This document shows positions 13,140-31,340 of a DNA stretch of 64,000 bases, in pieces. The stretch is taken from the NCBI RefSeq assembly GCF_037414475.1, contig NZ_CP147913.1, positions 6,446,001 to 6,510,000 of the forward strand, written 5' to 3'. The translations under genes were made by a program, and so were the position numbers. The notes beneath the pieces were generated by a model, which saw only the letters and a program-made list of their open reading frames with translations, ran no database searches and had not been told where the DNA came from. How positions within the stretch are numbered: position 1 is the first letter of the stretch; each line of letters begins with the position of its first letter. The stretch is from Myxococcus stipitatus (GTDB taxonomy: Bacteria; Myxococcota; Myxococcia; Myxococcales; Myxococcaceae).

Positions 13140-13203
13140 ACCCCGCTGCCCCGTCACTGCGTGCGTGCACCGCGCGCCCCTTGAGAGTAGGTAGACGACC
13201 ACC

Positions 13204-14400
13204 ATGAAGAGCGTGTCCAAGACCGAGGAAATCTTCTTTCTTTCCGGCAAGCGCACCCCGTTCGGCACCTACGGCGGCAGCCTGAAGGACCTCAGCGCCA
13301 CCGACCTCGCCGTCGAGTCCGCGAAGGCCGCCTTCGCCCAGGCGAAGGTCTCCCCCGAGCTCGTCCAGCACATCGTGTACGGCAACGTCGTGCAGACCAG
13401 CGCGGACGCCATCTACCTGCCGCGCCACGTGGGCCTGCGCACCGGCGTGCCCGTCCCCGTGCCGGCCCTGGGCGTCAACCGCCTGTGTGGCTCCGGCTTC
13501 CAGGCCTTCATCACCGCCGCGGAGATGATGCTCACGGAGCAGGCCGACTGCGTGCTCGCCGGCGGCACCGAGTCCATGAGCCAGGCGCCCCACGTCATCC
13601 GCGGCGCGCGCTGGGGGCTGCCGCTGGGCAAGGGCAACCTGGAGGACATGCTCTGGACGGCGCTGACGGACAGCTACACCGGCAACCCGATGGCGCTCAC
13701 CGCCGAGCAGCTCGCGGTGGACTACTCGCTCACGCAGGACCAGGTGGACGAGTACGCGGTCCTCACCCAGAAGCGCTTCGCCGCCGCGCAGGAGGCGGGC
13801 CGCCTCCAGGATGAAATCGCGCCCGTCACGCTCAAGACGAAGAAGGGCGAGACGGTGTTCGCCAAGGACGAGCACAACCGTCCGGAGACGACGGTGGAGG
13901 GGCTGCGCAAGCTGCCCAAGGTCTTCAAGAAGGACGGCGTGGTGCACGCGGGCGCCGCCAGCGGCATCTGCGACGGCGCGGGCAGCATGGTGATGGCCAC
14001 GCGCAGCTTCGTGGAGAAGCACGGCCTGAAGCCCATCGCCCGGCTGGTGAACTGGGGCGTGGCCGGATGCGACCCGAAGGTGATGGGCATCGGCCCGGCG
14101 CCCGCCATCCGCAACCTGCTGACGCGCGCGCAGGCGAAGCTGTCCGACATGGACCTCTTCGAGGTGAACGAGGCCTTCGCGCCGCAGTACCTGGCGGTGG
14201 AGAAGGAGCTGGGGCTGCCGCGCGAGCAGACCAACGTGAACGGCGGCGCCATCGCCGTGGGCCACCCGCTGGGCGCTTCCGGCGCGCGCATCACCACGAC
14301 GCTGGTCTATGAGCTCAAGCGTCGCGGCGGCCGCTATGGTATCGGATCCGCCTGTATCGGGGGCGGCCAGGGCATCGCGGTGCTCGTCGAGGCGCTCTGA
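13204..14400 (+). CDS. Thiolase (acetyl-CoA C-acyltransferase)
   Basis: A 398-residue thiolase. It condenses or cleaves acyl-CoA: biosynthetic acetoacetyl-CoA formation or beta-oxidation. The nucleophile is Cys95 (VNRLCGSGFQA), the general acid/base residues are His354 (GGAIAVGHPLGASGAR) and Cys384 (SACIGGGQG). The length matches the about 390-residue family. No 3-hydroxyacyl-CoA dehydrogenase gene is adjacent, so I cannot tell whether the role is degradation or biosynthesis. The next small ORF begins at the A of the TGA stop, giving translational coupling if that start is used. Confidence 0.95.
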   Translation: MKSVSKTEEIFFLSGKRTPFGTYGGSLKDLSATDLAVESAKAAFAQAKVSPELVQHIVYGNVVQTSADAIYLPRHVGLRTGVPVPVPALGVNRLCGSGFQAFITAAEMMLTEQADCVLAGGTESMSQAPHVIRGARWGLPLGKGNLEDMLWTALTDSYTGNPMALTAEQLAVDYSLTQDQVDEYAVLTQKRFAAAQEAGRLQDEIAPVTLKTKKGETVFAKDEHNRPETTVEGLRKLPKVFKKDGVVHAGAASGICDGAGSMVMATRSFVEKHGLKPIARLVNWGVAGCDPKVMGIGPAPAIRNLLTRAQAKLSDMDLFEVNEAFAPQYLAVEKELGLPREQTNVNGGAIAVGHPLGASGARITTTLVYELKRRGGRYGIGSACIGGGQGIAVLVEAL

Positions 14401-15210: not shown

Positions 15211-15945
15211 ATGCGACCGATGCGCAGCTTCGGCGGCAGGGGCGGAGGCGGATTCGGCCTGCCTGGCCTGGAGTCCATGTCGTCCAAGCTGGCGGTGGGG
15301 TTGGTGGCGGGGTCCGTGCTGTACCTGCTCCTGCGCTCCCAGGGCTCGGCGGCGGGGAGCCTGCTGCTGCTCATGCCCACCGGCGTGTTCGGCCACCTCT
15401 TCGTCTGGCAGCCGCTCACGTACGCCTTCATCGAGAGCGAGCCCATCAGCATCCTCTTCGGCGCGCTGCTGCTGTGGTCCATCGGCGGCTGGCTGGAGGG
15501 GTACTGGGGCGCGAAGCGGCTGTTGATGGTGGCGGTGGGGTGTACGGCGCTGGCGGGCTATCTGCTGGGGCTGGCGGCGTTCCTCGTCCCGCTGCCGTAC
15601 GTCTACCAGGGCGGCTGGGTGATGGGCTCCGTGCTGTGGGTGGCCTACGGGCTGACCATCGGCCGGGGGCAGACGAACTTCTGGGGCATCCCCCTGTCCG
15701 GCAATGCCTTCGCGGCGATCGGCGCGGGCTTCGTGTTGTTGCGCGTGCTGACGGCGGGGTTCGCCAGCCAGCTGCCGCACCTGGTCGCCATGGCGCTGGT
15801 CTTCGCGTACGTGCGCGGCGCGAGCCCCAAGCGGCTGCTCCTGCACTTCCAGCACTGGCGGCTGCAGCGCCAACTGCGCGAGCGGTCCAAGCACCTGCAC
15901 GTGGTGCCGAAGGACCGCCCGGACCGGGACCAGTACCTCAACTGA
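15211..15945 (+). CDS. Rhomboid-like multipass membrane protein, probably non-proteolytic
   Basis: A 244-residue protein with about six transmembrane helices and a basic cytoplasmic tail (about 200-244). The segment WQPLTYAFIESEPISILFGALLLWSIGGWLEGYWG resembles the rhomboid L1 and helix 2 region, and PHLVAMALVFAYVRG resembles helix 6 with its His. The catalytic GxSx motif of rhomboid proteases is not readable: the corresponding segment reads VMGSVLWVAYG. It may belong to the inactive rhomboid/TMEM115-like group. A glycine-rich leader (GGRGGGGFG) precedes the first helix. Convergent with the following regulator gene, with only 3 bases between the stops. Confidence 0.7.
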   Translation: MRPMRSFGGRGGGGFGLPGLESMSSKLAVGLVAGSVLYLLLRSQGSAAGSLLLLMPTGVFGHLFVWQPLTYAFIESEPISILFGALLLWSIGGWLEGYWGAKRLLMVAVGCTALAGYLLGLAAFLVPLPYVYQGGWVMGSVLWVAYGLTIGRGQTNFWGIPLSGNAFAAIGAGFVLLRVLTAGFASQLPHLVAMALVFAYVRGASPKRLLLHFQHWRLQRQLRERSKHLHVVPKDRPDRDQYLN

Positions 15946-19334: not shown

Positions 19335-22300
19335 TCAGCCTTCCGTCACGGCCTGGACGCTGGCGCGGTAGATGAAGATGCGCGGCGTGTTGGTGCGCTG
19401 GTCGGCGGGGACGACGAAGAAGCCGGGGGTGCTGCTCTTGAAGTCCTGGGAGAAGCCGGCGACCTGGCGGCCGTCGTTGAAGGTGACGCGAATCTTCTGA
19501 CCTTCCGCGGGGGGATGGCGGGTGCCCGCGGGGACGACGAAGAAGATGGCCTTGAGGCGCTTGCCGGGGATGGGCTCCGCGGCGAAGCCGCTCTGCTGCT
19601 CCAGGAGGATGACCTCATCGAGCAGGTCGGCGTCGCGGATGGTGCCGCGTTTCACCTGGCCCTCGACGGTGTGGATGATGACCTTGTGTTCGCCCTCGAC
19701 GAAGGAGGAGGTGCCCATGGGGGGCTCCGCCTCGAAGAGTGGCTCGAGTTGAGCGGCGGCGAGTGGCGGTGGGGGAGGCGCGGAGGGGCGCAGCGCGGCG
19801 CTCATGGCCGCCGCGGAGATGGCGGTGGCGGTGCGCGGAGGCGGCGCGGCTTCGGGCTCGGCGGCTTCTTCCACCAGTTCGATTTCGGCGAGCTCCTGCT
19901 CGGGTTCGGGCTCGAACTCGACGGCGACTTCCTCTTCCATGAGAGGGGAGAGGGGCGGCGTTGAGAGCACGGGGCTCGGGGTGGGGGCGGAGTAGTCCTT
20001 CCCGGGGATGCCGAACGGGCTGCTGTCCCTGGAGTGCCAGGGCGTGGTCTGGGGCGGAGGCTCCTCGGCCCAGGCCACTTCCTCTTCGACCTGGATGGGC
20101 TCGGCGGGGGCCTGCTCCTCGGTGGAGAGCTCGAGCGTCGGCTCCACGTCGATGGACGGGCTGCTCCACTCGGGCTGAAGCTCCACGGGGGCCGAGGTCT
20201 CGGCGCCGGGAGTGGCCCACTCGGACTGGACCGCGTCGGCGGGGAGCTCCTCGGCGGCCCATTCGGACTGAGTGGCTTCGGCCACGGGCGCGCTTGTGGT
20301 GGCCCACTCGGACTGGACCGCGTCAGCGGGGAGCTCTTCCGCGGCCCATTCGGACTGAGTGGCATCAGTCATGGGCGTGCTTGTTGCCGCCCACTCGGAC
20401 TGACTTGCACCAGTCGCAGGAGTGCTCGAGGAGTCCCACTCGGACTGGACTGCGTCGGCGGGGAGCTCCTCGGCGGCCCATTCGGACTGACTTGCACCAG
20501 TCGTAGGAGTGCTCGAAGAGGCCCACTCGGACTGGACCGCGTCGGCGGGGAGTTCCTCGGCGGCCCATTCGGACTGAGCGGCTTCGGCCACGGGCGTGCT
20601 CGAGGAGGCCCACTCGGACTGGACCGCATCGGCGGGGAGTTCCTCGGTGGCTGCCCACTCGGGCTGCGCGGCGCCAGACGCGGATGCATCCGTGGTGACG
20701 GCCCACTCCGGCTGCGCCGTGTCGGCGGAAAACGCTTCGGACGTGGCCGACCATTCGGGCTGCGCCGTGATGGATGCAGGCGTGCTCGCGTTGGAGGTCC
20801 ACTCCGGCTGGGCCGCGCCGGTGGGGAGTTCATTCGTCGTGGCCGACCAGTCGGACTGCGTGGCCCCAGATGCGACTGCTCCTGGCGTGGTCTCCCATTC
20901 GGGCTGGACCGCATCGGCGGGAAGTTCCTCGGCCGTGGCGGACCACTCGGGCTGCGTGGAGCCAGACTCCGATGCGCTCGATGCGGAGGTCCATTCCGGT
21001 TGAATGGCCTCGACGGGGAGCTCTTCGACCGTGGCGGACCACTCGGGCTGCGCGGCGGCGGACGCAGGCTCGTTTGGCGTAGTGCTCCACTCAGTCTGAA
21101 CCGCGTCAGCGGGGAGTTCCTCGACGGTGGCGGACCACTCGGGCTGAGCTGTGGTGGACGCGGGCTCGTTCGCCGTCGTGCTCCATTCCGCTTGGATTGC
21201 GTCAGCGGGGAGTTCCTCGACGGTGGCGGACCACTCGGGCTGAGCCGTGGTGGACGCGGGCTCGTTCGTCGTCGTGTTCCATTCCGCTTGAACTGCGTCA
21301 GCGGGGAGTTCCTCGGCCGTAGCAGCCCACTCAGGCTGAGCTGTGGCGGACGAGGTCTCGTTTGTCGTTGCGCTCCACTCCGCCTGAACGGCATCGGCTG
21401 GGAGCTCCTCGACCGTTGCGGACCACTCGGGCTGCGCGTCGGCGGACGCGTTTGACGTTGCCCCCCACTCAGCCTGAACGGCATCGGCTGGGAGTTCCTC
21501 GGCCGTGGCGGACCACTCGGGCTGGGCGGCGGCGGACGCGTCCGACGTTGCACCCCACTCAGCCTGAACGGCATCGGCAGGGAGTTCCTCGGCCGTGGCG
21601 GACCACTCGGTCTGGGCGGTGCTGGCTACAGGAGTGCCTTCGTTGGCGGCCCACTCAGGTTGAGCAGCGTCAGCGGGGAGTTCTTCGACCGTGGCGGACC
21701 ACTCGGGCTGCGCGACGGCAGCCACGGGCTCGTTTGTCGTTGTGCCCCACTCAGCCTGCGCGGCATCAGCGGGGAGCTCTTCGACGGTGGCGGACCATTC
21801 GGGTTGCGCGGCGCTGGTTCCAGGCGTGGCTTCGGTGGCGGCCCACTCAGACTGAACGGCATCGGCGGGGAGTTCTTCGACCGTGGCGGACCACTCGGGC
21901 TGAGCCGTGGTCGACGCGGGCTCGGCCGTGGACGTGCTCCACTCAGCCTGAACAGCATCGGCAGGGAGCTCTTCGACGGTGGCGGACCACTCGGGTTGAG
22001 CGGCGGACGTGGGATCGTTCGCCGTCGTGTTCCATTCCGTTTGGACTGCGTCGGCGGGAAGTTCCTCGGTCGTAGCAGTCCACTCAGGCTGAGCGGTGGT
22101 GGACGCAGGCTCGTTCGACGAAGCACTCCATTCCGATTGGACTGCATCGGCGGGAAGCTCTTCTGCGGGCAGAGTGGCTGCGGACGTGGTTGCCGTGGAA
22201 GACCACTCGCCCTGAATCGTATCGACCGGGACTTCTTCTGCTGAGGCAGCCCATTCGGGCTGAGCAGAGCCAATGACAGGCTCGTTCGCGTTGGCCGCCC

Positions 22301-25300
22301 ACTCAGACTGAACCGCGTCGGCGGGAAGCTCCTCGACCGTGGCGGACCACTCGGGCTGCGCGGCGCTGGTTGCAGGCGTGCCTTCGGTGGCGGCCCACTC
22401 AGACTGAACGGCATCGGCGGGAAGTTCCTCGACCGTCGCGCTCCACTCAGACTGTGTGGTGCCAGCGGCAGTCGGGCTCTCAGTGGCAGACCACTCCGTT
22501 TGAACCGCATCGGCGGGAATCACTTCGGACGTCGCGGACCACTCGGGCTGAGCGGTCGCGGACGCGGTCGTACTTGTGTCGGGCGCCCATTCCGCCTGAA
22601 TGGCATCAGCAGGAAGCTCTTCGGCCGTGGCGCTCCACTCGGGCTGTGCTGATCCGGATGCTGGCGTGTTTGTGTCAGGCGCCCACTCCGCCTGAACGGC
22701 ATCGGCAGGGAGTTCCTCTGCCGTAGCCGACCACTCCGGTTGCGCCTCTCCAGCAACGGGCGCGCTCTCGGTTGTCGCCCACTCCGCCTGAACGGCATCG
22801 GCAGGGAGTTCTTCTGCCGTAGCCGACCACTCCGGTTGCGCCTCACCAGTAACGGGCGCGCCCTCGGTGGTTGCCCACTCCGACTGAACCGCATCGGCAG
22901 GGAGCTCTTCTGCCGTAGCAGACCACTCCGATGGCGCTTCACCGGAAACCGGCGAGCCGTCGGGGGGCGCCCACTCCGCCTGAACCGCATCGGCGGGGAG
23001 TTCTTCTGCCGTGGCAGACCACTCCGGTTGCGCTTCACCAGAAACCGGCGCGCTCTCGGTAGTCGCCCATCCCGTTTGGACCGCGTCGGCGGGAAGTGCC
23101 TCGGCGGTGACAGCCGATTCGGGCTGCGCCTCGCCAGACACGGACTCGCTCGCGGATGCAGTCCACTCCGCCTGGGCCGCATCGGCAGGAAGCTCTTCGG
23201 CCGTGGCGGACCACTCGGGCTGCGTCGCGGAGTTATCGCTCGCGGGCGTCGCCCACTCCGCCTGAACTGCGTCAGCAGGAAGCTCTTCGGCCGTGGTGGA
23301 CCACTCAGGCTGAGTCGCGGAGTTATCGCTCGCGGGCGTCGCCCACTCCGCCTGAACAGCATCGGCAGGAAGCTCTTCGGCCGTCGTGGACCACTCAGGC
23401 TGAGTCGCGGAGTTATCGCTCGCGGGCGTCGCCCACTCCGCCTGAACTGCGTCAGCAGGAAGGTCTTCGGCCGTGGCGGACCACTCAGGCTGCGTCGCGG
23501 TGGTGGTGTCGCTCGTGGGCGCAGTCCACTCCGCCTGAACAGCATCGGCGGGGAGTTCCTCGGCTGTGGCGGACCACTCGGACTGCGCCGCGTCGGAGGC
23601 CTGTGCGGCAGGCGTCGCGTCAGCGCTCCATTCCGTCTGCACCGCGTCGGAAGACAGCTCCTCCGTCGCGGCCCACTCCGCCTGCGCAGTGCCCTCGTGG
23701 GCTGGCTCGCTCGTGGACGCCGTCGCCCACTCGGTCGAAGCCACCGCGCCGCTCTCCGTCGCGGGCGTCGCCTGCGCGGTCTCGCTCGACGCTGAAGCCC
23801 ACTCGGGCTGGAGCTCGATGACGTCGGGGCTCGCTAGCGCGGCGGTCTCACTCCACTCCGAAGCTCCCGCCGTGGACGCGTCCGTCGTGGCTGCCCACTC
23901 GGATTGCTCTTCGAGGGCCGCCGCATCCTCGGTCGCCGCGGATTGCTCCGAGGAGACCATTCCCGCGCTGCTCGCGAGCGGCTCCAACCCACCCGACTGC
24001 GCACTCCAGTCGCCATCACCGGAGCCCTCGAGCGAAAGCTCCATCCCACGATCATTCGACCCGGAGAACTGCCCCGCATCGAGGAAGTCACCCGCCGTCG
24101 CGAGGGGCACCGCATCCTCGGGACTGCCACTCAGGTCGAACGTCTCGGCCGAAGCCTGGACCCCCACTTCCGGAATTGCCGCCGCATCCGTGTCGACCTC
24201 GACGGTATCGGCCTGGAGATCCGGCCCGACACGCACGGAACGAATCTCCAACGAGGGCACCGTGTCGGCGTTGAACGGTGACGCCTCCGTCCGCGGACTC
24301 TCCTCCGCGCTCAGGTCCGCCACTTCGAAGGTCGGCGTCTCACCCGCGGCCACCGGCTCGGCGCTCGGGTGCTCCTCGGGCGCCGACTCCGTGTCCAGCA
24401 CCGCCGCGGAAGGCTCCGGTGTGAACTCGGTCTCCATGGACGCCGTCCACGCATCGGCCTCCATCGAATCCGCATGCTGCATCTCAAGCGTGCCGGTCGA
24501 CGCCGCGACACTCGAATCCAGACCCGACGCGCTCACGTCGGCACTGTCGAGAGCAATCTCCTCGACCGCGGCATCCTCGGTGACACCCGCAGACTCGACC
24601 GCCAGTCCCTCGCCGCTCGACTCCGGAGCCACGGGATCGAGCATGTCCGACGCATCGAGCGCGAGCTCCGCGCCACCCGTCGGCAACTGCTCCACCACCG
24701 CCGAATCATCGGTGAGCACCGCCGCGTCCTGCCCCACCGAGTCCGCACGGGCCATCGTGCCCGTGTCATGCGCGGTGAAGTCGAACTCCTCACCGGAGTC
24801 CTGTGCACTCGAGACGCCCTCGTCCGAATCGAGCGAGACCGCCTCCATCGCCCCGACGTCGATGACGTCATCCGCGTCGGCGATCTCCTCCGCCGAGGAC
24901 TCGACGGGATCCACCGCGAGCGGCGCGGAAGCCCACGCATCATCCATGGGCGCGGGAGTGTGCTCCTCTGCCAGCACCGGCTCGCTCTCGGCGGACGCGT
25001 CGAGCAACTCGACCTCCGACGACGGAACCTCCAGCTCGGACTCGGAAGGCGAAGCCTCGAGCACGGAATCCGAGGCATCCACCGGCGCGGATTCGACCTC
25101 CAGGGAGAGGTCGGCGAAGGACGCCTCGAGCGAAGCCTCCGGCTCGCGAGCCGTGGCCACGGGCTCCACCTGCGAATCGAGCTCCCCGAAGTCCTCTTCC
25201 GGCGCCACCGGTTCGGCGTCCGGCTCCGGCGACACCGCGTCGAACGACGCGGAATCGAGCATCCCGGAGTCACCCCCCAGGGGCTCCGAGCCCTCCAGGT

Positions 25301-26234
25301 CCGAATCCCCGAGGACATCCGCGAACGAAGAGGACGTCGACGTGGCCGACGGAGCGACGGGAGGCGGCGTGAGGCTCGGGGCCATCCACGGCGCGGGTTC
25401 GCTCAGCGCGGGGATGTCGATGTCGTCCGCGCTGAGGGCCAGGTTCTCCGGCCCCGCGGCGGGGAGCGGGGCATAGGCGCTCGGGTCCTGAGGCGCCTGC
25501 TCATAGCCCGTCTGATACGGCTGCTGCTGCCCGGGGATACCCTGCGCGTCCTGCGGCGAGGCCGGCCAGCCCTGGGCATAACCCTGGTTCGGGTCATAGC
25601 CCTGCTGCTGCGCATAGGCCTGGTTCGGGTCGTACCCCTGCTGCGCGTAGCCCGGGTAACCCTGGTTCGGGTCATAGCCCTGCTGCTGCGCGTAGACCTG
25701 GTTCGGGTCGTAACCCTGCTGCGCGTAGGCCTGGTTCGGGTCGTAGCCCTGCTGCGCATAGGCCTGGTTCGGGTCGTAACCCTGCTGCGCGTAGGCCTGG
25801 TTTGGATCGTACCCCGGCTGTGCGTAGGCCTGATTGGGGTCGTACCCCGGCTGTGCGTAGGCCTGATTCGGGTCGTACCCCGGCTGCGCATAGCCGGCGG
25901 GGTAGGGGTACCACTGACCATCCGCGCCGTAGTAGCCCTGGGGCTGCTGGGCGTAGGCCGGGTCCGGGTACGCGTACCACTGGCCGTCGGCGCCGTAGTA
26001 GCCCTGGGGCTGCTGGGCATCGCCGGCGGGGTAGGGGTACCACTGGCCATCCGCGCCGTAGTAGCCCTGGGGGGCTGCCTCCTGCTGCCAGGCGGCGGCC
26101 TCGGGCGTGTCCTGGACGCCGAGGAGCGCACGCAGCTCGCCCCAGCGAGCCTCCTCGACGGGAGACAGGCTTCCCAGTTTCCGCTTCTCGTCGAGGAAGC
26201 GAAATTCTCTCATGGCTGCGCGCGTGTCCGACAT
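19335..26234 (-). CDS. Giant repeat protein, tyrosine-rich N-terminus, tryptophan-bearing repeat array, C-terminal globular domain
   Basis: A 2299-residue protein that I cannot name. Order: residues 1-50 are a charged helical head (REFRFLDEKRKLGSLSPVE); about 55-115 hold three YYGADGQWYPYP units; about 115-215 hold nine GYDPNQAYAQ units; about 270-770 are a low-complexity acidic Ser/Ala/Glu/Val stretch; about 770-2025 carry about 35 roughly 30-residue repeats built from QPEWSATAEELPADAVQ (about 29 exact ELPADA cores); about 2040-2170 are Pro/Glu-rich; about 2175-2299 form a compact strand-rich domain beginning HKVIIHTVEGQVKRGT. No signal peptide or membrane helix. AAGGTG precedes the ATG by 5 bases. 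The Tyr/Gln-rich tract and aromatic spacer pattern resemble phase-separating scaffolds; that is inference. Confidence 0.9.
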   Translation of the reverse strand: MSDTRAAMREFRFLDEKRKLGSLSPVEEARWGELRALLGVQDTPEAAAWQQEAAPQGYYGADGQWYPYPAGDAQQPQGYYGADGQWYAYPDPAYAQQPQGYYGADGQWYPYPAGYAQPGYDPNQAYAQPGYDPNQAYAQPGYDPNQAYAQQGYDPNQAYAQQGYDPNQAYAQQGYDPNQVYAQQQGYDPNQGYPGYAQQGYDPNQAYAQQQGYDPNQGYAQGWPASPQDAQGIPGQQQPYQTGYEQAPQDPSAYAPLPAAGPENLALSADDIDIPALSEPAPWMAPSLTPPPVAPSATSTSSSFADVLGDSDLEGSEPLGGDSGMLDSASFDAVSPEPDAEPVAPEEDFGELDSQVEPVATAREPEASLEASFADLSLEVESAPVDASDSVLEASPSESELEVPSSEVELLDASAESEPVLAEEHTPAPMDDAWASAPLAVDPVESSAEEIADADDVIDVGAMEAVSLDSDEGVSSAQDSGEEFDFTAHDTGTMARADSVGQDAAVLTDDSAVVEQLPTGGAELALDASDMLDPVAPESSGEGLAVESAGVTEDAAVEEIALDSADVSASGLDSSVAASTGTLEMQHADSMEADAWTASMETEFTPEPSAAVLDTESAPEEHPSAEPVAAGETPTFEVADLSAEESPRTEASPFNADTVPSLEIRSVRVGPDLQADTVEVDTDAAAIPEVGVQASAETFDLSGSPEDAVPLATAGDFLDAGQFSGSNDRGMELSLEGSGDGDWSAQSGGLEPLASSAGMVSSEQSAATEDAAALEEQSEWAATTDASTAGASEWSETAALASPDVIELQPEWASASSETAQATPATESGAVASTEWATASTSEPAHEGTAQAEWAATEELSSDAVQTEWSADATPAAQASDAAQSEWSATAEELPADAVQAEWTAPTSDTTTATQPEWSATAEDLPADAVQAEWATPASDNSATQPEWSTTAEELPADAVQAEWATPASDNSATQPEWSTTAEELPADAVQAEWATPASDNSATQPEWSATAEELPADAAQAEWTASASESVSGEAQPESAVTAEALPADAVQTGWATTESAPVSGEAQPEWSATAEELPADAVQAEWAPPDGSPVSGEAPSEWSATAEELPADAVQSEWATTEGAPVTGEAQPEWSATAEELPADAVQAEWATTESAPVAGEAQPEWSATAEELPADAVQAEWAPDTNTPASGSAQPEWSATAEELPADAIQAEWAPDTSTTASATAQPEWSATSEVIPADAVQTEWSATESPTAAGTTQSEWSATVEELPADAVQSEWAATEGTPATSAAQPEWSATVEELPADAVQSEWAANANEPVIGSAQPEWAASAEEVPVDTIQGEWSSTATTSAATLPAEELPADAVQSEWSASSNEPASTTAQPEWTATTEELPADAVQTEWNTTANDPTSAAQPEWSATVEELPADAVQAEWSTSTAEPASTTAQPEWSATVEELPADAVQSEWAATEATPGTSAAQPEWSATVEELPADAAQAEWGTTTNEPVAAVAQPEWSATVEELPADAAQPEWAANEGTPVASTAQTEWSATAEELPADAVQAEWGATSDASAAAQPEWSATAEELPADAVQAEWGATSNASADAQPEWSATVEELPADAVQAEWSATTNETSSATAQPEWAATAEELPADAVQAEWNTTTNEPASTTAQPEWSATVEELPADAIQAEWSTTANEPASTTAQPEWSATVEELPADAVQTEWSTTPNEPASAAAQPEWSATVEELPVEAIQPEWTSASSASESGSTQPEWSATAEELPADAVQPEWETTPGAVASGATQSDWSATTNELPTGAAQPEWTSNASTPASITAQPEWSATSEAFSADTAQPEWAVTTDASASGAAQPEWAATEELPADAVQSEWASSSTPVAEAAQSEWAAEELPADAVQSEWASSSTPTTGASQSEWAAEELPADAVQSEWDSSSTPATGASQSEWAATSTPMTDATQSEWAAEELPADAVQSEWATTSAPVAEATQSEWAAEELPADAVQSEWATPGAETSAPVELQPEWSSPSIDVEPTLELSTEEQAPAEPIQVEEEVAWAEEPPPQTTPWHSRDSSPFGIPGKDYSAPTPSPVLSTPPLSPLMEEEVAVEFEPEPEQELAEIELVEEAAEPEAAPPPRTATAISAAAMSAALRPSAPPPPPLAAAQLEPLFEAEPPMGTSSFVEGEHKVIIHTVEGQVKRGTIRDADLLDEVILLEQQSGFAAEPIPGKRLKAIFFVVPAGTRHPPAEGQKIRVTFNDGRQVAGFSQDFKSSTPGFFVVPADQRTNTPRIFIYRASVQAVTEG
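20160..23930 (-). repeat. Coding tandem-repeat array (about 30-residue Trp units)
   Basis: The array encodes alternating Trp-containing motifs EWSAT and ELPADAVQ. Units average 90-100 bases but vary in length through small indels. The three units beginning near 23232, 23322 and 23412 are spaced exactly 90 bases apart and nearly identical, so they are recent duplications. It is coding DNA, not a CRISPR or intergenic array. Confidence 0.9.
25580..25885 (-). repeat. Coding GYDPNQ(A)YAQ tandem repeat, nine units
   Basis: Nine near-identical units of about 33 bases, reading GYDPNQAYAQ with Pro or Gln linkers; one unit is expanded to GYDPNQGYPGYAQ. It lies directly after three longer YYGADGQWYPYP units (25890-26070). 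The tract is Tyr-, Asn- and Gln-rich and should be intrinsically disordered. Confidence 0.9.
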
Positions 26235-26354: not shown

Positions 26355-27770
26355 CTACCTCTTCTCGAGGGAACGCTGGACCTCGGTATCGAGCTCCTCC
26401 AGGGTCATTCCGTAGTGGGTCTTCAACGCCTCCTCGAAGGAGGCGTTCTCTTTGCACGCCGTGCGCAGGAGGGTCATCAGCCGGTGGGCCCCCTCCCGGC
26501 GCATCAGTTCTTTGACCGCCAGTCCGGATACGGCGTAGGCCATTTCGGGATGGGCGGTGTTCATCGGGGCGACCACGGCCATCTCGCTGACCTGGGGCAG
26601 CTTCGCCGACGACGCCAACACGGAGCGCATCTCGTTCGCAAGCCTCGGGTCGGGCCCGGGCGCGTCCAGGTACTTCCACTCCACGAACATGGCCAGTCCC
26701 TCGTTGAACCAGACGGGGAGGTAGGCCATGTCGTTGTCGGCGCCGCCGCAGAAGTCGGCGACGGCGGCGTGGACGTACTCGTGGATGAGGGTGGCCTTGG
26801 TCTGGCGCGTCAGCTCCGCCGCATCGTTGATGCGGATGGCGTTCGCCGAGTACCTGCCCGCCACGAGTCGTGCGGCCCGGCTGCCGTAGGCGGCGCGGAA
26901 CTCGTTGAACGTGTAGAGGACAACAGAAACGGGGGTCTCCCGCGTCTCGCCGAGCACCCCTCGGGTGAAGTGGTAGGCCTCGTTGAGGACTTCGACGACC
27001 TTGCCTTCGTAGTCGGCGCGCTGGCTGAAATCGCGCTCGTTGTTGAAGTAGCTGATGACGAACCGGCTGTTGGCCCGCACGCGCATGCCGGTGGCGTCCA
27101 CGCGGGACTCGAAGCCGACGTCGGGGGCGCGGACGCTCATCCCCGGCTGCGTCCCCAGCGAGACGACGGAGGTCTCATCGCTCCCCCGGCCCACCGAGGG
27201 CTGCGTGGAGGCACCTCCCAAGCGGCGGGAGATGCGCGTGGCCTCCGTGCGGGCCGCGTCTTCCTGCAACGTCTGCTGTCGGGCCTGCTTGAGCAGCCGC
27301 TTCGCCTCGGCCGCTTCGCGTGAACGAGGAGGCACCTTCTCCAGCGCGGCCTGTGCGCCCACCGCGTCCTGCTCCTCGAGCAGCAGCTTGCCCAGCTCCA
27401 GCGGGAAGCCGCCGTCCTTGGGATAACGCGTGACGCCCTTGAGCAACGCGGCCTCGGCCGCGGCGCGCTGCTCCGTCTTCCTCGCCGCGGATGCCAGACA
27501 GCGCAGCGCGGGCGCGGATTCCTCATACACGGCGGCGCGCTCACCCATCGAGTACGCCATGACGGCGTCGTCCTTCATCAGCGCCTGACAGCCCTTCACC
27601 AGCGCGCTGGACACCGTGGCCCGCTGCTCCTCGGGGACCGCCTTCTCGTCCCCGGACGCGAACGCCAGGTACAGCTCCTCCCATTCCTTCCGGCCCGACA
27701 GGTCCTTGGCTTTCTGGGCCGGCGTGGTGGGGGCGGCGGCGAGCAGCAGTGCGGCGAGCAGGGAAACCAT
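26355..27770 (-). CDS. Secreted gluzincin-like metallopeptidase with TPR-like N-terminal region
   Basis: A 471-residue protein with an N-terminal signal-like segment (VSLLAALLLAAAPTTPA), a helical repeat region (about 20-180; Ala/Leu-rich, TPR-like with KDGGFPLELGKLLLEE), a linker and a peptidase domain of the MA-like clan. Zinc ligands His330 and His334 sit in HEYVHA and the third ligand Glu is in WFNEGLAMFVEW, about 27 residues on. The HExxH-type motif has catalytic Glu331. Such proteins occur as exported peptidases in myxobacteria; substrate unknown. It lies 120 bases upstream of the giant gene on the same strand, so both might be one transcript. Confidence 0.85.
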   Translation of the reverse strand: MVSLLAALLLAAAPTTPAQKAKDLSGRKEWEELYLAFASGDEKAVPEEQRATVSSALVKGCQALMKDDAVMAYSMGERAAVYEESAPALRCLASAARKTEQRAAAEAALLKGVTRYPKDGGFPLELGKLLLEEQDAVGAQAALEKVPPRSREAAEAKRLLKQARQQTLQEDAARTEATRISRRLGGASTQPSVGRGSDETSVVSLGTQPGMSVRAPDVGFESRVDATGMRVRANSRFVISYFNNERDFSQRADYEGKVVEVLNEAYHFTRGVLGETRETPVSVVLYTFNEFRAAYGSRAARLVAGRYSANAIRINDAAELTRQTKATLIHEYVHAAVADFCGGADNDMAYLPVWFNEGLAMFVEWKYLDAPGPDPRLANEMRSVLASSAKLPQVSEMAVVAPMNTAHPEMAYAVSGLAVKELMRREGAHRLMTLLRTACKENASFEEALKTHYGMTLEELDTEVQRSLEKR

Positions 27771-30988: not shown

Positions 30989-31340
30989 GCGACATAGGAG
31001 CCGCTGAAGCGCGGGAGGAGCCCCGGCGATGGCTCGCGGCGCGATGGCCTCAGAGGAGCGCTCTCCATGCCACCTCTCACGCGCGCGGGAGGGCGCCTCG
31101 GCAAGGGCTCGCCGCGAGATGGCCTCCGGGGAACGCACTCCATGCAACCTCGCACGAGCGTGGGAGGAACTGCGGCGAGGACTCGCCGAGAGGCACTCTC
31201 ACGGCAACATCGCGCGAACCCAGGATGAATCGCGACGAGGGGGCTCAGCGCGACGGCCTCTTGGGACCGCGCTCACCGTCCCTCCGTGCCCACCCGGGAG
31301 GTCTCTCGGCGACAGTGCGCCGAGCGATATCCTCCCAGGA
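30989..31340. repeat. Degenerate tandem repeat in a gap between convergent genes
   Basis: A 376-base gap with no gene. It holds a tandem repeat whose units start at about 31026, 31101, 31175, 31234 and 31309 (spacing 75, 74, 59 and 75), with a half unit from 30989. Each unit begins GCGA-like, carries GGCCTC or similar about 18 bases in, and ends near a GGGAGG-like block followed by CTCG. Units differ at roughly a third of positions. Function is not clear; it could be an old repeat decaying, a protein-binding array or a weak structural element. It runs up to the helicase stop at 31358. Confidence 0.6.

Follow-up and report, generated by a model that had tools for sequence, protein, structure and literature searches.

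What kind of protein is encoded at 19335-26234 of the window (the whole stretch of DNA that was analysed, 64,000 nucleotides), and what keeps so long and repetitive a chain in being? The gene lies on the minus strand, starts with ATG and specifies 2299 residues (ORF list and translation); the genome is a single contig of 10.31 Mb. The host bacteria, of the phylum Myxococcota, are known for motility and multicellular development. By composition the product has a mass of 239 kDa, a pI of 4.05, no Cys and a net charge of -394. That charge, and a single Lys in the 2127 residues of its middle (96 would be expected from the eight neighbouring genes), mark the product as a polyanionic repeat chain of an extreme kind.

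The original prediction had described a scaffold-like, disordered protein with multivalent aromatic repeats, matching nothing known. The first part still fits best and is now firmer, given the charge, the disorder-type composition, the regular Trp and the conservation. The second part has to be given up: both ends have a counterpart, as the tail belongs to the DUF6982 family and the head resembles the hairpin that precedes PilZ domains. Reading from the sequence, we tentatively favour a cytoplasmic, multivalent polyanionic hub of Myxococcota that would be docked via its ends. The features on which the argument draws are these:

19335-26234, minus strand: whole gene, 2299 aa (ORF and orthologues)
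26100-26234, minus strand: head (aa 1-45), hairpin-like, resembling the N-termini of PilZ proteins (profile and sequence comparison)
25899-26066, minus strand: three GYYGADGQWYxYP repeats (aa 57-112; pattern count)
25578-25880, minus strand: nine GYDPNQxY repeats (aa 119-219; pattern count)
23901-25559, minus strand: acidic disorder-type segment (aa 226-778; composition, charge-hydropathy)
24081-24140, minus strand: short conserved motif FDLSGSPEDAVPLATAGDFL (aa 699-718; orthologue comparison)
20145-23900, minus strand: EW array (aa 779-2030), 76 Glu-Trp pairs with a period of about 16 residues, in EELPADAVQ-type and variable half-units
19707-20144, minus strand: Pro/Ala/Glu-rich linker (aa 2031-2176; composition)
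19347-19691, minus strand: DUF6982 (PF22478) domain (aa 2182-2296), first half modelled as an SH3/LSm-like barrel (Pfam, model)
26355-27770, minus strand: upstream neighbour, peptidase MA_2 protein
15211-15945, plus strand: rhomboid-like membrane protein (DUF1751)

The middle chain and its surroundings

The three GYYGADGQWYxYP repeats that had been predicted were all recovered, with an exact YPYP in two of them, as were the nine GYDPNQ repeats. The predicted richness in Tyr, Gln and Asn suits only the short N-terminal tract that these repeats occupy (aa 56-225), which contains no Lys or Arg; elsewhere, negative charge and Trp dominate. For the third repeat class, the estimate of about 35 Trp-bearing units comes near our counts (29 for EELPADA[VAI]Q, 33-34 for looser patterns), while the Trp feature itself had been undercounted. 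The EW array spans 1252 residues without Lys or Arg and holds 78 Trp, of which 76 follow a Glu. The gaps between EW pairs are exactly 16 residues in 48 of 75 cases and 14 or 15 in 19 more. When the array was shuffled 1000 times, EW occurred 11.1 +/- 3.0 times, at most 20. The net charge between aa 813 and 2062 is -238. Searched against its own genome, the array found itself and one weak match (E 0.08; 150 of 196 candidates scored).

By charge-hydropathy, the YYG/GYDPNQ tract, the acidic segment, the EW array and the linker all fall to the disordered side of the boundary, which together with the net charge bears out the acidic disordered segments first proposed. The head is barely on the folded side (0.423 vs. 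a boundary of 0.421). Also on the folded side is the C-terminal region, and the globular domain expected there proved to be DUF6982 (the domain by itself scores E 2.4e-28).

Within the disordered region, the motif VPLAxxxEFL (24081-24140) is found in the full-length same-genus orthologues examined and in some distant ones; our pattern fails to pick it up in the rows of g19, g20 and Corallococcus, as in most distant rows. It occurs four times in L126. A role as a genome-wide docking motif was considered and set aside, the giant protein alone matching well (next match, E 0.48).

The neighbouring genes code for a thiolase, YceI, a dehydrogenase of the glutamate type, a peptidase and a rhomboid-like protein. 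When 29 diverse loci were compared, 20 had a frame like the thiolase at 13195-14397, 19 one like the rhomboid-like protein and 12 one like the peptidase, counts that are depressed by loci cut at contig ends. These neighbours point to deep synteny and offer no functional clue. There is one promoter-like site (0.4 in shuffles) and there are two terminator-like sites (3.8 in shuffles). A separate tandem repeat, 2.5 copies of 75 bases, lies outside the giant gene at 31008-31192.

Distribution, turnover and constraint

The original prediction allowed that the repeats might be an assembly artefact or the gene a decayed remnant. Neither holds. An artefact is ruled out by the recurrence of long open frames in separately assembled genomes (1916-2358 aa in 16 of 18 same-genus relatives), and a remnant by those same long frames and by the constraint on the repeats seen in pN/pS. 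In the other two same-genus relatives, G011 and G012, the matches lie near contig starts and the frames are 203 and 448 aa long.

Named close relatives of the gene come from Myxococcus, Pyxidicoccus, Corallococcus, Hyalangium and one Myxococcaceae MAG. The C-terminal domain is present in 29 of 31 genomes (our own and 30 relatives), as a single copy in each. Across the phylum, the Pfam model places DUF6982 above its cut-off in at least 155 of 195 genomes; the figure is a lower bound, as G182, G184 and G185, which have no row in the Pfam count, carry a DUF6982-like domain by our own profile (G182 also by Pfam). There is one match in 150 genomes, two in G032, G153, G166 and G167, and three in G165; the matches in G165, G166 and G167 include frames of only about 145-163 aa. 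In our own genome one further match falls below the cut-off (E 0.70), and a plasmid collection gave none. A gene that is usually single copy and present in most of the phylum genomes examined argues for a basic cellular role.

Head and DUF6982 occur in one frame far beyond the genus, while the middle varies. The lengths of frames matched by the head equal those matched by DUF6982 in G138 (2153), G028 (1206), G036 (891) and G183 (498), and DUF6982 is present in all eight further head frames checked. At E<=0.05, the head profile has matches in 73 of the 97 genomes searched. In the window protein, the conserved head and the conserved DUF6982 enclose a disorder-type chain some 2100 residues long that carries about -0.19 charges per residue.

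How steady is that charge? For 49 of 75 sequences the limits of the middle could be set, the other 26 being omitted because our pattern found no head in them (divergent heads or contig-end cuts); two or more of these 49 rows duplicate a contig already present (L029/L086, L041/L108). Per residue, the net charge is -0.193 in the Myxococcus genus (sd 0.005, n=20, window included), -0.195 in Corallococcus (n=6), -0.197 in g17 (n=2), -0.191 in g15 (n=4) and -0.192 in g19 (n=2). It deviates in four genera: g20 (-0.164, n=5), g14 (-0.180, n=1), g38 (-0.120, n=2) and g28 (-0.117, n=1). A value near -0.19 is therefore kept in five of nine genera; the sequences being related, the small spread is suggestive and is neither a set of independent cases nor a formal test. 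Lys numbers 0-2 in the middles of the 20 Myxococcus-genus rows, and Cys is absent from the middle in all 49. In aligned columns of the middle, identity with the window protein is 0.73, 0.75 and 0.64 in the sister species and 0.40-0.49 in seven of ten comparisons. Steady charge despite such turnover of sequence makes the protein a natural case in which to test selection on the bulk properties of disordered proteins.

EW pairs in the middle number 76 for the window protein and 32-74 for the remaining rows of the genus; g20 has 9-18, g14 has 10, and g28 and g38 have 0. Trp itself ranges from 28 to 97 in the middle chain of Myxococcus, Corallococcus and near genera. Since other genera have few EW pairs or none, the array is best seen as elaborated in some genera only, and it is not the core function.

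Could the middle then be an entropic spacer, an expandable low-complexity chain kept soluble by its negative charge, with only the head and DUF6982 of importance? We regard this as fairly unlikely. DUF6982 frames do vary widely in length and repeat type (about 145-2358 aa, some of the short ones at contig ends), and over the longer sequence the middle is only 25-39% identical in seven of ten pairs. The ratios of non-synonymous to synonymous change speak on both sides. Between the window and three sister species (L073-L075), pN/pS is 0.03-0.10 in DUF6982, 0.08-0.13 in the head, 0.10-0.15 in the YYG/GYDPNQ tract, 0.23-0.34 in the linker and 0.43-0.48 in the acidic segment; for the EW array it is 0.29-0.34, which tells against a spacer. 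Against the more distant L082, where the head and DUF6982 stand at 0.21-0.23, the linker reaches 0.75 and the array 0.64, as a spacer would have it; misaligned repeats may inflate the array values. On these ratios, the EW array is under protein-level constraint that weakens with distance.

The units can also be compared within the gene. All 48 unfiltered 16-residue EW units give pN/pS 0.44 at pS 0.65. The 34 units picked by the pattern EELPADAVQxEW give 0.09 at pS 0.71. Splitting the 16-residue units yields 0.12 for the 25 of ELP type and 0.53 for the 23 that are variable. As selection by pattern holds certain positions constant, 0.09 and 0.12 are underestimates. The high pS means that the units are not recent copies. 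The EW pair and the ELPADA core have been retained among units whose codons have diverged, and Trp, a costly residue, numbers 89 in the middle against 25 expected. Both observations count against a spacer.

The two ends

Sixteen heads were searched against 97 genomes, and the 36 matching places outside frames that are evidently or probably the giant protein were fetched and classified. Thirteen are PilZ proteins, in which the matching segment comes directly before the first PilZ domain; by eye they make up about five families and so are not 13 independent events. The matches are weak (E 5e-6 to 0.03), and the best in our own genome, L134, has E 0.079 and is by eye the counterpart of L153. Pfam confirmed PilZ in seven of eight head-bearing proteins submitted, and one PilZ protein also matches TIGR02266 just below cut-off (66.1 vs. 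68.7). Two of the 36 are DUF6982 proteins (L163, L194). Three are short proteins (L164, L165, L193), with no Pfam family in the two submitted. They come from one family of the phylum, are about 200 aa long and have a hairpin-like head followed by a short C-terminal beta-type tail that recalls DUF6982 by eye; they may be minimal relatives. Two related proteins, L162 and L178, begin with a head-like segment, hinting that the head may be a more general docking module; by eye the 1312-residue frame of L162 has TPR-like and Ser/Thr-kinase-like sequence and a kinase-like end. The remaining 16 have neither a PilZ nor a DUF6982 domain: L195 has the look of a truncated DUF6982 protein, L159 is a charged protein, and most of the others look like chance or shadow frames.

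A few head matches stand apart. A small contig of G117 (L161, G117:C2:7001-13000) carries two partial copies of head plus YYG in frames of 472 and 163 aa; G117 also holds a full gene, and the partial copies are possibly due to duplication or to an assembly effect. L023, matched by a 78-aa head query, was dropped as lying opposite a dehydrogenase-like ORF by eye, and inspection by eye of the weak own-genome matches L135 and L137-L139 brought up nothing of relevance.

The head bears on two rival readings. One makes the giant a secreted or surface fibre protein, of the matrix or the spore coat, and we consider it highly improbable. Its Tyr- and Trp-rich tracts do seem to recall fibre proteins by composition; against this, the charged head is common to PilZ and kinase-like proteins, and no hydrophobic N-terminal stretch is visible on reading the sequence. 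The other, argued from analogy, is an adaptor of the type IV pilus or of cell polarity: the head and an LSm-like barrel would dock on the motility machinery and the arm would link other parts. The PilZ-type head suits such a role, as in M. xanthus motility is impaired in mutants of three PilZ proteins, and PilZ mutants also show developmental defects, according to the part of the source available (PMC8316039). An LSm core can also act as a protein adaptor, for in cyanobacteria Hfq docks on PilB in an Hfq-PilB-EbsA complex, as described in the available text of PMC8092324. However, the eight neighbouring frames scanned with Pfam include no pilus gene, and we judge the adaptor unlikely.

The tail is the firmer match. 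DUF6982 covers aa 2182-2296 (profile 2-130 of 134), scoring 91.4 bits in the whole protein and 99.3 with the domain alone against a cut-off of 24.5, and it is the sole family found by a Pfam scan of the whole protein, which has no PilZ domain. That DUF6982 might be a disguised PilZ domain was rejected, as the two profiles do not align (hhalign E 0.44). The family is known by name only, and our literature search found no paper naming it. When 27 diverse DUF6982 domains are aligned, nine residues prove invariant (H16, G20, G25, F59, D82, R84, G88, P104 and R113).

What fold does it have? AlphaFold, from an alignment of the window sequence and 14 close relatives (15 rows), gave a mean pLDDT of 50, with five strands in residues 11-60 (67-79 on average per block) and low confidence at residues 62-127; the second half modelled alone reached 59, with three strands. 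In Foldseek, the first half matched Hfq chains at ranks 1-9 (E 0.10-0.15, probability 1.00, TM by target 0.59-0.62). VIA-align gave, among the 50 rows listed, Z 6.1-6.9 for Hfq, 6.5 for one Edc3/Scd6-related entry and 7.3-7.6 for dihaem cytochrome c; Z under 8 may reflect only a common arrangement, and the cytochrome likeness was set aside for this reason, a small barrel being such an arrangement. The halves of DUF6982 align collinearly (49 columns, score 16.7, P 0.005; maximum of 50 column shuffles 14.8). We propose with modest confidence that the first half of DUF6982 is an LSm/SH3-like barrel, and with low confidence that the second half is another, in tandem.

The modelled fold invites comparison with Hfq. 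Could DUF6982 be an Hfq-like RNA regulator, whose tandem LSm barrels would bind RNA in competition with the polyanionic arm, in bacteria without Hfq? The setting is inviting: the Hfq profile PF17209 matched none of 31 genomes, our own included, at E<=0.01 (controls positive in 5 of 14 genomes), and M. xanthus, like myxobacteria, lacks an hfq homologue yet has the regulatory sRNA Pxr, by the portion of PMC5684412 at hand. The Foldseek ranking, the many Hfq chains at Z 6-7, the collinear halves and the basic residues that are conserved or nearly so (R24, K56, R84, R108, R113) all point the same way, as does the acidic tail tip of E. coli Hfq, which mimics nucleic acid in autoregulation (PMC5606850, in the text accessible). 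Yet no Foldseek match to the DUF6982 model reached E<=0.001, the model is of low confidence and poor in its second half, small barrels are common, dihaem cytochrome c tops the middling VIA-align rows, and hhalign gives the likeness of the halves a probability of only 7%. Sequence searches of the PDB are no kinder: a single DUF6982 sequence found no solved relative, and the profile found three non-significant rows, including Sm D3 at E 0.87. We hold this model-based reading to be improbable. Its extension to a giant Hfq substitute, in which a tandem LSm-like tail and a nucleic-acid-mimicking arm would make a star-shaped RNA- or RNP-like hub, with the PilZ-type head leading to c-di-GMP partners, is decidedly doubtful. 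An LSm-like tail in bacteria without Hfq nevertheless raises the question of which factor handles sRNAs in myxobacteria, just as the PilZ-type head raises that of what PilZ hairpins bind.

The proposed hub and known systems

How might the favoured polyanionic hub work? The C-terminal barrel domain would dock on a partner or self-assemble, as LSm barrels often do, and the head would bind whatever PilZ-type hairpins bind, which would place the protein in a c-di-GMP, motility or polarity setting. The arm would act as a brush in which weak EW stickers recur; by multivalency it may gather basic or Trp-binding (e.g., TPR) clients, and might do so as a condensate. Bulk charge, sticker motif and the two ends would be under selection, and copy number would drift. 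More speculatively, tandem barrels could form a ring from several chains with one arm each. The confinement of the EW array to some genera counts against the array as the core of such a hub. Further points against the hub are the looser constraint on the array at greater distance and among its unfiltered units, the faint head-PilZ likeness in our own genome, the uninformative neighbours and the four genera that deviate in charge.

No study of the giant protein was found among the literature matches listed, from which papers citing only the M. xanthus locus tag would escape. It can be set beside four known systems. By its tail, above the curated cut-off, it belongs to the DUF6982 family, in which it is distinguished by an acidic repeat arm of about 2100 residues, other frames going down to about 145 aa. 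Its head weakly resembles the N-terminal segment of PilZ/TIGR02266 proteins of Myxococcota, although it has no PilZ domain of its own. With Hfq and other LSm proteins, it may share the barrel modelled for the first half of its tail domain; next to that domain it has an acidic disordered extension, a feature that E. coli Hfq shows beside its core (PMC5606850, available part). Unlike Hfq, it has no match to the Hfq profile, two barrels are proposed per chain, and the arm is N-terminal and about 2100 residues long. Finally, in joining disorder-type composition (by charge-hydropathy) to regularly repeated stickers, the features sought in a condensate scaffold, it can be compared with PomX and PomY, Myxococcus proteins reported to form condensates in the accessible parts of two papers (PMC10307791, PMC11725790).
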